Position numbers and translations under genes: made by a program
The notes under the pieces: generated by a model
The model's database searches: none
Seen by the model: only the letters and a program-made list of their open reading frames with translations
What the model was told of the DNA's origin: nothing
DNA from: an uncultured Flavobacteriaceae bacterium
GTDB taxonomy: Bacteria; Bacteroidota; Bacteroidia; Flavobacteriales; Flavobacteriaceae
Direction of reading: 5' to 3'
DNA: 64,000 bases
Assembly: GCA_947502495.1 (NCBI GenBank)
Contig: CANNAC010000001.1
Coordinates: forward strand, 248,001-312,000
Shown here: positions 19,521 to 61,945 of the stretch, one piece after another
Numbering within the stretch: position 1 is the stretch's first letter
How the letters are laid out: every line of letters begins with the position of its first letter

Positions 19521-19534
19521 CCGACTTAAATTAA

Positions 19535-19609
19535 TTATCAAGAATCTCGAAAGGAGATAGCAACCTGCAATAACAAGCAAGGTGCTAAAGCGATAAGCCA
19601 ATATTTTGG
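19535..19609 (+). promoter_or_regulatory. Compact SAM-clan riboswitch-like leader
   Basis: P1 is TTATC (19535-19539) with GATAA (19592-19596). The junction AAGA is as in SAM-I. P2 is a plain hairpin ATCTC-GAAAG-GAGAT (19544-19558). P3 starts AGCAACC and ends AGGTGCT (19559-19586): it keeps the G-C, C-G pairs, the asymmetric AA/U internal loop and the CC/GG pairs that form the SAM pocket in SAM-I and SAM-IV RNAs. There is no P4; instead CCAA-TATT-TTGG (19598-19609) follows P1, recalling P5 of SAM-IV. The kink-turn and pseudoknot arm of SAM-I are missing. It precedes a NhaC/MetT-type transporter. SAM binding is inferred, not shown. Confidence 0.65.
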
Positions 19610-19672
19610 AAAAAATGTTAATTCAATTTCTTCTCTATTTGCTTTTTGTCTTCTTTCTATTAAAAAGAAAAA

Positions 19673-28843: not shown

Positions 28844-28871
28844 AATTTTTTGAATGTATTAATGTAAAAGT

Positions 28872-28898
28872 AAGAAATTATAAGGGTTATAATTTCTT
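28872..28898. repeat. 12-bp inverted repeat at the 3' end of the reverse transcriptase gene
   Basis: AAGAAATTATAA (28872-28883) and TTATAATTTCTT (28887-28898) pair perfectly around GGG. It lies 2 bp beyond the stop codon of the reverse transcriptase gene. There is no proper U-tract on the transcript strand, so it may be a weak terminator, an RNA 3'-end structure, or the edge of the inserted island. Confidence 0.6.
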
Positions 28899-28900
28899 GA

Positions 28901-30412
28901 TTATAGATCTTTTTTAACATTTGAAAAATCATATTTTTTCATTGTTTTTTGAAGTATTTTCCAATGTTTACGCAATTGCCTTTTTATTTCAGGAGCATCC
29001 AAATCGTCAGCAGCTCTGTAAGCATATCTTAAATAATTTCCTCTAAATTTTCTGTCAAAATATTCGGTTTCAGCTTTACCATTAATATAGCCCGTTCTTT
29101 TTGCAGGTATTAACCTAGATTTTTCTCCTTTAAAACTAAATAATCTATAAATTTTTCTTTTAAATATTGGCGCTTCATCTAAAAGATGTTTTTCTTTAAT
29201 GGTTTCAGCTCTTTTATGTTTGAGTTTTATAGTTTCTTTCATTTCTCTATAAAACTTAGCTAAGTTTTTAGATTTTATTAATGTTTGATAACCATAAAAT
29301 TCAAAACCTAAATAGTTTAAAGGAACATTCTCTTTTAGACTACCATCTTTACCAATTTTATAGCATTGTAATCGGTTTTTATTTTTTTTGAAAAGTGTTT
29401 TTTCTGTTTTCTCTAATGAAACTTTTAATTTATTTTTTTTCATTTCATCTTTAACAAATTCACTTACAAATTGAATTTGATTTTCATTGCAAATCATTAC
29501 AATATCATCGGAATATCTTCTATAAAACACATTGTGTTTTAAAGTTAACTCTTTTAAAACAGACTCATCAAAAGCAAGCATATAAATATTGGCAAGTAAG
29601 GCGCTAATAGGTAATCCTTGCGGAATACCTATTAATTCTTTTTGTTTGTTTTGTTTTTGGTTTTTATGAATTATTATATCCGAATCAATTAAATCTTTAA
29701 TACTATTAAAAAACGTGTGTTTACCTTCTTTTTTAAGCTTGGCTAATTCCTTCTCATCAAAATGACCATTTTTGGTCTTTAAATCTTTGAGTTTTACATA
29801 AGAAAATCTGGTAGTCGCTTTAAAAAGATTAAAGTGATCTTTAGGTAATGTTTTGTTGCCTAATATTTTTGCCCAAGCTAGTTTTAGTTTTTTATGATTT
29901 AAACTAGGAAAGAAATTTTCAATATCTAAAACAAGAGCGACACAATTTTCTCGTCTTTTAATTTCATCAAATACATCTTTTGCAAAATGTACATTGTTTT
30001 TAAACTTTAGTTTATCATCTGTTTCTATTTGTCTGTAAGCCGTAATTGAATTAGAAAGTAAACTATTTTTATTTAGATAAGCTTCATATTTTGGAGTGAT
30101 AATTTGTTGTGTGTAATACGAATAGACATGAGCGTCTAAATGTGTGGCATATAGTATTTCTCTAATTTTTGTATTAGTTACTATTTCTCCATTTTTAAGT
30201 TTTTTGTGAGAGCGTCTTTCTTCTCCATTAAAATTAGATAATTTATAACGTCTTTGTTTAATTTCTTTAAAAATAAGAGGAGAGAAGGAGTGTTGCGCTA
30301 CTTTTTTAGTATTGGAAACATAGTGCTCAATATTTCTTCTAATAGACAATGGTGTCTTATTAGTAAAATGAGGATATCCTCTGTCTTTAAACCAATCTTT
30401 TTGTGCGCTCAT
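28901..30412 (-). CDS. Reverse transcriptase (unclassified/DRT or retron-like)
   Basis: 503 residues with a complete RT palm. Motif 3 is VLDIENFFPSLNHKKL (Asp163), motif 4 GIPQGLPISALLANIYM (about 262-278), motif 5 YRRYSDDIVMI (about 298-306, active site YSDD rather than YADD), then LNYLGFEF (motif 7). The N-terminus (KDWFKDRGYPHF, THLDAHVYSYYTQQII) belongs to stand-alone bacterial RTs. No maturase, HNH nuclease, integrase or primase domain is seen, so it is not an ordinary group II intron enzyme. The C-terminal ~130 residues are basic and could bind RNA. The location on a small island with a repeat-bearing upstream region suggests a defence RT (DRT) or retron; the class is uncertain. Confidence 0.88.
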   Translation of the reverse strand: MSAQKDWFKDRGYPHFTNKTPLSIRRNIEHYVSNTKKVAQHSFSPLIFKEIKQRRYKLSNFNGEERRSHKKLKNGEIVTNTKIREILYATHLDAHVYSYYTQQIITPKYEAYLNKNSLLSNSITAYRQIETDDKLKFKNNVHFAKDVFDEIKRRENCVALVLDIENFFPSLNHKKLKLAWAKILGNKTLPKDHFNLFKATTRFSYVKLKDLKTKNGHFDEKELAKLKKEGKHTFFNSIKDLIDSDIIIHKNQKQNKQKELIGIPQGLPISALLANIYMLAFDESVLKELTLKHNVFYRRYSDDIVMICNENQIQFVSEFVKDEMKKNKLKVSLEKTEKTLFKKNKNRLQCYKIGKDGSLKENVPLNYLGFEFYGYQTLIKSKNLAKFYREMKETIKLKHKRAETIKEKHLLDEAPIFKRKIYRLFSFKGEKSRLIPAKRTGYINGKAETEYFDRKFRGNYLRYAYRAADDLDAPEIKRQLRKHWKILQKTMKKYDFSNVKKDL

Positions 30413-30544
30413 AGTTAAATAAAAGTAAGAGAAGTTCTCGCACGTATTTATTGCAGAATAGAACTTACACCTTAAAAAAGGATTGAACCATTAGCCGAGT
30501 TCTCGACTCACGTTGCAATTGTACGTCTAATAACAAATAACTAT
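30413..30544 (-). ncRNA. Candidate RNA partner of the reverse transcriptase (upstream region)
   Basis: The 132 bp upstream of the RT start contain a repeated motif: AGTTCTCG followed by CACGT at 30433-30445 and again, with a 3-nt insertion, at 30498-30513. On the RT strand this reads ACGTG-CGAGAACT twice. The second copy can form CGAG-AA-CTCG and the first GAGAA-C-TTCTC. Known retron and DRT2/DRT9 loci carry a structured RNA at this position. I cannot define its ends; the RNA could also extend into 30545-30840, where a perfect 18-bp palindrome is found. Confidence 0.4.
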
Positions 30545-30814
30545 ATGATAGCACTCATTAAATTAATAATCAACTTAGTCTTAGAGACCTTAGATATAAA
30601 CCAGATGTTGGTGTTTCTAAAGGACTTTATAAGAATTATTGAGGTATTATCGATAATACCGCAGATAATTTCTTATATTAACTGTAACAAAGTGAACAGA
30701 AATACATTTTACTTAATCACCATATTTATTATCCTTTTTTACTTGAAAAAAGTCGGATTAAGTGATTGGTTAAAAACCAATACAGTAGTTCAACAAATGT
30801 TTTATTCCTTTTAA
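30545..30814 (+). CDS. Small putative membrane protein beside the reverse transcriptase
   Basis: 89 residues, hydrophobic, with one or two possible membrane segments (about 38-48 and 61-75: FYLITIFIILFYL). Divergent from the RT gene. I do not recognise it. It contains the palindrome GGTATTATCGATAATACC (30642-30659), unusual for a coding sequence, so the ORF may be accidental and the segment may instead belong to a structured RNA on the opposite strand. No clear promoter was found. Confidence 0.4.
   Translation: MIALIKLIINLVLETLDINQMLVFLKDFIRIIEVLSIIPQIISYINCNKVNRNTFYLITIFIILFYLKKVGLSDWLKTNTVVQQMFYSF
30642..30659. repeat. Perfect 18-bp palindrome
   Basis: GGTATTATC followed by GATAATACC with no loop, inside the 89-residue ORF. 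It could be a protein-binding site, an RNA hairpin of an RT-associated transcript, or chance. Confidence 0.6.
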
Positions 30815-30885
30815 CTAAAGAACTTCTTTACTTTCAAGTAAATATAACATATATTCTTATCTTTAATAAAAATTAAAAAAAGAAT

Positions 30886-31551
30886 ATGAATGTATTTGAA
30901 ATAGGAGATATAGTAACAATTAAATCACATCCATTATTTAGTTCTACTCCCAAACGAATTAATGAATTTCCAGCTCAAGTACCACCACTAATGTTAGTAA
31001 AAGAGGTTATATATGAAAAAGAGGATAAAAAGAAAGTTTATAGTGATGTAATTGAAAAAGCACAAATAGCAGATGTAGTGAAATATGTATGTGTTTTCTT
31101 TAATGCAAATAAAAGTGAATTTGTAGAAAAGGAGGTTTACCATTCACTATTAGATTCTTATTTGAAATTAAAGTATTATAAAGAGTTTAAAGATGATGCA
31201 GGAGTAACTTTTGCGATAGATAAAACATTAATAGATGAAGTAATAACTTATAATAAAGCGGAAGCTTATGTTTTTGGTAAAAGGGTTCAATTTGTCACTA
31301 AAAAATTAGAACAAAGAAAATCATATAATCCTTCTTCTGAAAGAATTCCAAGTTCATCATTTCAAACACCAGATTTTATATTATCTGGAATAAAAAATGA
31401 AGAACAAAAGGATTTATTTTTTCAAGATGGAAAACCAAAAAGACAGATAACCAAACAGTCATATAAAGTCATGTGGTTTAATCATGTCCAACAAAAATTT
31501 AGTGAACACTATTTACCAAAAGAATTTTTTGTGGAAAAATTAGAAATTTAA
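30886..31551 (+). CDS. Hypothetical protein of the reverse transcriptase island
   Basis: 221 residues, soluble, without signal peptide. The N-terminus FEIGDIVTIKSHPLF and LMLVKEVIYEKEDKKKVYSD resembles a small SH3-like or KOW-like beta barrel, followed by a second half rich in Lys, Glu and Ser. I do not recognise the family. It lies on the far side of the RT locus before the ABC importer genes. An A-rich leader precedes the ATG as usual in Bacteroidota. It may be part of the same accessory island; no evidence ties it to the RT functionally. Confidence 0.65.
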   Translation: MNVFEIGDIVTIKSHPLFSSTPKRINEFPAQVPPLMLVKEVIYEKEDKKKVYSDVIEKAQIADVVKYVCVFFNANKSEFVEKEVYHSLLDSYLKLKYYKEFKDDAGVTFAIDKTLIDEVITYNKAEAYVFGKRVQFVTKKLEQRKSYNPSSERIPSSSFQTPDFILSGIKNEEQKDLFFQDGKPKRQITKQSYKVMWFNHVQQKFSEHYLPKEFFVEKLEI

Positions 31552-31623
31552 TTCAAATAATTTCAAAGATTGATTAATTTAATAATTTATTTGAGATGCT
31601 GAAACAAGCACAAGATGACAAGT

Positions 31624-34865: not shown

Positions 34866-34911
34866 TTTTAATTAGTTTGCATTTAAAAAAGAAATTACTT
34901 TTGCACAGAAT

Positions 34912-35092
34912 TTTGGTTTGACTTCGCAATGAAGCAAAGTCGATTAAAAGGGAATCTAGTTAAAATCTAGAACTGTTCCCGCAACTGTAATCTTTGTTCA
35001 CTTAGTGAATACTTATTATTACCCTTCAAGTCACTGGAAAAATTTTCTGGGAAGACAAATAATAAGATGAGAGTCAGGAGACCTGCCAATTT
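34912..35092 (+). promoter_or_regulatory. Cobalamin riboswitch (B12 element)
   Basis: Conserved pieces occur in order: AAAAGGGAAT (34946-34955), AACTGTTCCCGCAACTGTAA (34971-34990), AAGTCACTGG (35028-35037), GGGAAGAC (35049-35056) and the B12 box AGTCAGGAGACCTGCC (35072-35087). Together these are the core of the adenosylcobalamin riboswitch. It controls the TonB-dependent receptor gene directly downstream, whose start codon is about 45 bp away; high cobalamin should lower its expression. Confidence 0.96.
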
Positions 35093-35131
35093 CAACATCA
35101 AATGAATCTTCGGGAGAAAGATTTTAAGATT

Positions 35132-61640: not shown

Positions 61641-61722
61641 GGGCGTTTTAACACGCTATTCGTTGTATCTTTTTTTGCCATATACGGCAGCAAAAAAAGG
61701 ATGCCACTGCTATCGTTAACGC
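61641..61722. repeat. REP-like element with terminal GCGTT/AACGC and long hairpin
   Basis: An 82-bp segment opens GGGCGTTTTAACACGC and ends TATCGTTAACGC, with imperfect terminal inversions, and holds the stem TTTTTTTGC/GCAAAAAAA around an 11-nt loop. Text of this kind (GGGCGTT...GCTATTCG...GGATxxCCACTxCTATC...TAACGC) recurs, from memory, between genes in other Flavobacteriia. Function unknown. Confidence 0.65.
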
Positions 61723-61945
61723 GAAGAAAGGCTAGTCTGAAAGGAATAAAGTTGTTGGTTTTATTTTTTGTTTTCGAAATTAATTAAACGGTTCGTATAT
61801 GGTTTTTTTCGTGGCTAAGTAACTAATTTAGCTAGTACAGACCGAATACAAAATCTGCGAAGATTTTTTTAAGTAGGCTAGAACTAGCAATAAAATATAC
61901 ACGTCGTTGTATGACTTTTTTCTTTTTTTCTAATTATTAATTTTT
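61723..61945. other. Intergenic stretch with no recognised feature
   Basis: Between the REP-like element and the TrkH gene stop I see only AT-rich sequence with several T-runs, and no ORF, promoter or hairpin that I can support. Confidence 0.5.

Follow-up and report, generated by a model that had tools for sequence, protein, structure and literature searches.

Which kind of system is formed by a reverse transcriptase (RT) gene and the repeat-bearing region upstream of it in an uncultured Flavobacteriaceae bacterium, and what might its upstream RNA encode? A first-pass annotation of the 64,000-nt stretch of DNA that we analysed as a whole (the window) had described a stand-alone RT and drawn parallels to both retrons and DRT2-type systems. 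Computation on the window and its relatives revealed the kinship of the RT, the structure of its RNA, frame and promoter patterns, and templates that differ on a constant scaffold. The RT, a pseudoknotted noncoding RNA (ncRNA) and a YodC-like partner probably make up a DRT2-type antiphage module.

A divergent DRT2-type reverse transcriptase in a discrete insert

The two protein-coding genes of the predicted module are:

28901-30412, minus strand, DRT2/UG2-type RT of 503 aa with active site YSDD (open reading frame plus profile and PDB matches)
30886-31551, plus strand, YodC-like partner gene (PADLOC RTasYodC, 241.3 bits), divergent from the RT gene

The open reading frame and its YSDD active site agree with the first-pass annotation, and a grouping with DRT2/UG2 was borne out by a PADLOC Drt2 match of 445.8 bits and by DRT2 chains as the best PDB matches (E 7e-73 to 1e-70; next best 8e-10). 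The NCBIfam model Drt2 (NF041746) gave 366.9 bits, under its curated cut-off of 390, which was passed by none of 397 family genomes, suggesting that the local clade is divergent as a whole. Among the other UG models UG17 (= DRT10) reached 84 bits and Drt3a 74 bits, and Drt9 was not among the best 25 of 36 PADLOC matches. The retron reading found no support in the family scores (St85, 57 bits against a cut-off of 235; Ec107-like, 40.4 bits), and a group II intron was rejected at 62.4 bits for group_II_RT_mat against a cut-off of 300, with no Rfam intron family in the window at gathering score. Judged by its sequence, the RT is a divergent DRT2 (UG2) enzyme and neither an intron nor a retron RT.

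That the RT stands alone is correct insofar as it is the single RVT_1 match at E <= 0.001 in the genome of the window (4.07-Mb assembly, 60 contigs), but incorrect in that the YodC-like gene is adjacent. A genome scan yielded 50 related loci (49 from Bacteroidota and one from Psychrobacter), and in 48 of these, as in the window, a YodC-like gene lies next to the system in varying orientation; the two without it are L074, which is cut short upstream, and L080, the Psychrobacter locus. The association of YodC with an RT is already catalogued, since the neighbour matches the PADLOC RTasYodC families; a literature search for YodC and reverse transcriptase gave no paper on this association, and YodC is absent from PMC11100668, as is DUF2158 from PMC8934634. 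A model of the YodC-like protein contains SH3/Tudor-like parts, as seen by weak matches. The whole module (~28850-31570, borders approximate) is flanked by rmuC and an ABC ATPase gene, and we regard it as a discrete insert of ~2.7 kb because rmuC directly adjoins the ABC ATPase gene in one genome of the same genus (L087), in which the site is empty. As in the window, rmuC is located downstream of the system in 25 of the 50 relatives' loci.

Three further RNA elements were found in the window, the first of them just 5' of a long open reading frame that looks like a TonB-dependent receptor gene:

34897-35104, plus strand, cobalamin riboswitch (95.6 bits)
19530-19625, plus strand, SAM-I/IV riboswitch (62.1 bits)
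61645-61737, minus strand, Flavo-1 RNA (60.8 bits)

A pseudoknotted RNA upstream of the reverse transcriptase

The upstream regions of 48 of the 50 loci and of the window were aligned (49 rows), and 42 rows were used for the structure. Over the RNA, no alignment was obtained for the Tenacibaculum locus L051. The predicted elements, with pairs counted as double-changed where both sides vary among the loci, are:

30430-30835, minus strand, pseudoknotted ncRNA of ~400 nt (alignment and covariation), ends approximate
30838-30846, minus strand, candidate -7 box of the ncRNA promoter, TATATTTAC, read from the sequence
30819-30827, minus strand, P1 5' strand (8/9 pairs double-changed, 94.4% of cells paired)
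30430-30438, minus strand, P1 3' strand, pairing with 30819-30827
30786-30793, minus strand, P2 5' strand (4/8 double-changed, 94.6% paired)
30483-30490, minus strand, P2 3' strand, pairing with 30786-30793; coordinates counted on from the position of the GUCGAG hairpin
30766-30780, minus strand, P3 hairpin (6/6 double-changed, 92.8% paired)
30712-30762, minus strand, P4 stem just 5' of the template, 30756-30762 with 30712-30718 (5/7 double-changed, 99.3% paired); coordinates obtained by counting on
30510-30513, minus strand, crossing (pseudoknot) helix, 5' strand (4/4 double-changed, 92.9% paired)
30442-30445, minus strand, crossing (pseudoknot) helix, 3' strand, pairing with 30510-30513
30494-30507, minus strand, GUCGAG hairpin of the 3' scaffold (2/6 double-changed, 99.2% paired)

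The 5' end of the RNA is deduced from the -7-like box. Alignment of homologues, which had been proposed as a check of the upstream RNA candidate, found it conserved and covarying across the 42 loci. The named structure including the crossing helix was paired in 91.3% of cells compared with at most 51.9% in slid controls, over which it has the advantage of having been drawn from the window sequence and the consensus fold. Double-sided changes occurred at 36 of its 49 pairs, and the covariation score was 0.389 versus 0.202 in shuffles, none of 500 being as high. RNAalifold recovered P1, P2, P3, P4 and the hairpin unaided, with 24 of 36 pairs double-changed; the crossing helix comes from the named-structure test, as RNAalifold cannot show crossing pairs. 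Helix 8 was poorly supported (55.4% paired).

The repeat that had drawn attention to this region is present, with AGTTCTCG at 30433 and 30498, 65 bp apart, and CACGT at 30441 and 30509. Its parts CGAGAACT and ACGTG supply strands to helices that covary, namely P1, the GUCGAG hairpin and the crossing helix. The repeated 8-mer as such is not widely conserved, and only 9 of 45 rows, the window among them, retain it in two exact copies. These results do not bear out the idea that the repeat serves as the template-jump site. The sequence also contains the letters of both small hairpins, one near 30817 and the other near 30829.

A predicted template with a stop-free antisense frame in relatives

Patterns of frame, promoter and cassette borders in the relatives point to the following template:

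30525-30705, minus strand, predicted reverse-transcription template (repeat unit), 181 nt
30643-30660, 18-bp perfect palindrome inside the predicted template, GGTATTATCGATAATACC

The jump is predicted to be bordered by two GTA motifs, one at 30703-30705 and the other at 30522-30524, with the template ending just before the second; the sequence between the two motifs is poorly conserved. GTA is found at both ends in most rows and ACA on the 3' side only in some; ACA at both ends was not seen. In 40 of the 49 loci the unit has a length divisible by three, and all 40 units have exactly one stop-free antisense frame when joined end-to-end, compared with ~2% of their shuffles and 3 of 40 on the sense strand. 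Relative to the scaffold the phase of the frame varies (20, 12 and 8 of the 40 units), and it nevertheless agrees at both ends because the length is a multiple of three. The nine exceptions are the window, L032, L033, L053, L051, L052, L074, L077 and L079, of which L052 (Tenacibaculum) and L074 have neither a length divisible by three nor an open frame. Shifting a border by one or two bases left 0 or 2 of 45 units open instead of 39, and moving the 5' border 30 nt outward reduced the 39 to 24, moving the 3' border outward to 34. The antisense peptides are hydrophobic, with a GRAVY of 0.79 versus 0.25 (SD 0.39) in shuffles and -0.11 in the other antisense frames, and of 16 selected pairs, 13 had a dN/dS below 1 in the antisense frame and three a value above 1. 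As a sequence pattern, the stop-free joined antisense frame of the relatives is the Neo signature of DRT2.

Promoters of Bacteroidota carry a -33 element, TTTG, at a defined spacing from the -7 box. The -7 box of F. psychrophilum is TAnnTTTG (PMC9723704). Throughout 45 concatemers, all ten matches scoring at least 10 of 11 fell at the junction, and four junction promoters were perfect (L038, L045, L049 and L081). Scores of at least 9 were reached at 14 of 45 junctions but at only 1 and 0 of 45 of the unjoined ends, and junctions averaged 7.96, compared with 6.36 and 6.11 for the unjoined ends and 5.26 for other scanned segments. The best match of a concatemer was at the junction in 23 of 45 and elsewhere in 22. 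Joining the ends can, by these predictions, rebuild a Bacteroidota promoter in many relatives; the junction of the window itself scored 6 of 11 (65th percentile).

The perfect palindrome, which had likewise been recognized early, measures 18 bp as against a mean of 8.6 in dinucleotide shuffles and was matched in 2 of 100. The longest perfect palindromes of the units average 11.9 bp versus 8.3 in shuffles, many being singly no longer than those of the shuffles. Their centre lies 24-36 nt from the 5' end of the template in 26 of 44, at 51-54 nt in 11 of the 12 templates of classes 0 and 3, and elsewhere in seven, and their sequences differ between templates.

Templates appear to be exchanged on a constant scaffold

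Grouping the 44 templates gave 15 classes, of which seven have a single member. Two Mariniflexile loci, L033 and L037, have RTs that are sisters on the RT tree and templates that are unrelated. Their 5' scaffolds are similar, the likeness breaks at the predicted template borders, and identity is complete over ~160 nt that cover the 3' scaffold and reach into the beginning of the RT gene, followed by 85-100% identity in 20-column steps. Full identity beside the template that declines further into the RT gene is the pattern expected of a recent recombination tract. Across the complete scaffold, L037 shares 92% identity with L033 and 94% with L032, compared with 36% in the template for both pairs. 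Because scaffolds this similar carry unrelated templates, relatives appear to swap the template like a cartridge on a fixed scaffold. On the RT tree, a quick tree with 10 open forks, 18 changes are needed to place eight classes on 35 rows, whereas 200 shuffles averaged 24.0 and never fell below 20, so the templates follow the RT loosely.

A finite frame in the lineage of the window

In the window the joined unit would encode a protein of finite length:

30545-30705, plus strand, predicted coding segment of Neo (58 aa), with its ATG at 30545; the frame would cross the jump (30705 to 30525) and close at 30540

With 181 nt the unit is not a multiple of three, and a stop-free junction frame is absent. 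The window, L032, L033 and L053 have in common a finite frame of 56-58 aa, a stop 13-16 nt past the junction, the same junction phase and a near-identical stop, and they share their template class with the endless L036, L043 and L064. In the window and L032, a jump that dropped one nucleotide or added two would yield an endless frame. In L033 a stop is met in every frame within 21 nt after the junction, and in L053 within 71 nt, so no jump register makes these two endless.

Proposed mechanism and alternative explanations

We infer that the RT would bind the RNA scaffold and copy the template with the 30705 side last. At the GTA of the template 5' end it would jump back to the GTA of the 3' end and repeat, and the concatenated DNA, made double-stranded, would bring the end of one unit up against the start of the next. 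In many relatives the junction would thereby assemble a Bacteroidota promoter and open the hydrophobic antisense frame (Neo), whose product might slow or kill the infected cell in defence, with a putative role for the YodC-like protein. At the junction of the window, the product would be a finite 58-aa protein and not an endless one. A plausible reading, which in our estimate falls short of an even chance, is a swappable effector template on a fixed RT-scaffold chassis that has given rise, in the lineage of the window, to a tandem array of discrete genes of 56-58 codons, the stop lying only across the repeat junction and each repeat encoding a normally terminated toxin.

The finite frame might instead be a lesion in a DRT2-type system whose RT and RNA work or worked, the template of the window being a frameshifted, decaying Neo. 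We consider this possible but rather doubtful. The endless relatives of the same class, the 181-nt unit, the weak junction promoter and a dN/dS of 1.22 on 17 differences between the window and L032 speak for decay, and stop codons placed in the repeat of Klebsiella pneumoniae (Kp) DRT2 are described as abolishing defence (PMC12039810; PMC11100668), which disfavours a working finite Neo in Kp. Decay is harder to reconcile with a finite frame, ATG and stop phase shared by four loci, including Lacinutrix, Mariniflexile and Mangrovimonas, with their full-length RTs (502-504 aa), with dN/dS values of 0.55 (L053 and the window) and 0.58 (L033 and L032), and with the stops in L033 and L053, where no change of register restores endlessness. 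We judge it about even whether the finite protein of the window works or is a broken Neo.

The other alternatives concern the template itself. Fast point divergence rather than exchange could have produced the template differences, and in Kp-like DRT2 RNAs the template is also described as the least conserved part (PMC12039810), yet L033 and L037 are identical over their ~160-nt tract and still carry unrelated templates, of two classes common to other lineages, making point divergence improbable. An 89-aa frame open on linear DNA (30545-30814) might suggest an ordinary small antisense chromosomal gene without any template jumping; this is very unlikely given that unit lengths are mostly multiples of three with phases agreeing at both ends while varying against the scaffold, that strong promoter matches arise only once the ends are joined, and that frames are lost when either border is moved outward. 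Even less probable is another UG-class or retron mechanism with a coincidental frame, for which remote HMM hits to the Drt3a, UG17 and retron families might be quoted: these reach 84 bits at best versus 445.8 for Drt2, and the frame pattern is far above that of shuffles.

Comparison with known systems

If true, template exchange on a constant chassis would show how hidden effectors diversify, and a finite Neo would separate toxicity from endlessness. DRT3, DRT9 and DRT10 are also UG-class systems with a repetitively reverse-transcribed ncRNA (PMC12632851; DRT3 from abstracts), but the products described for them are homopolymers or short repeats, unlike those predicted here. The closest counterpart is the DRT2 of Klebsiella pneumoniae, which resembles the window in its RT lineage and its upstream pseudoknotted ncRNA, and the relatives in the hydrophobic antisense frame across the junction, the unit length divisible by three and the promoter at the junction. 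In both RNAs the two partners of the pseudoknot are a stretch that shortly follows the template and another close to the 3' end of the RNA, and our crossing helix occupies the same place as the Kp pseudoknot, given as G155-C159 with G250-C254 (PMC12596737). The window differs from the Klebsiella system in the lengths of the RT (503 versus 425 aa) and the ncRNA (~400 versus 280 nt), and its clade in the units (171-192 nt, one of 105, versus 111-129) and the promoter (Bacteroidota -33/-7 versus -35/-10). The borders are GTA in this clade versus ACA in Klebsiella, the template of 42 close Kp-like homologues being described as flanked by two ACA trinucleotides (PMC12039810). A P1 stem joining the RNA ends and a YodC-like neighbour further set the clade of the window apart from the Klebsiella system, and its lineage has the finite frame, unlike Klebsiella. 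According to the DRT2 preprint, Neo is harder to annotate as clades become more divergent, and other mechanisms are suggested for such clades (PMC11100668); the relatives of the window represent one such divergent clade with clear, testable borders and frames and a phylum-specific promoter.
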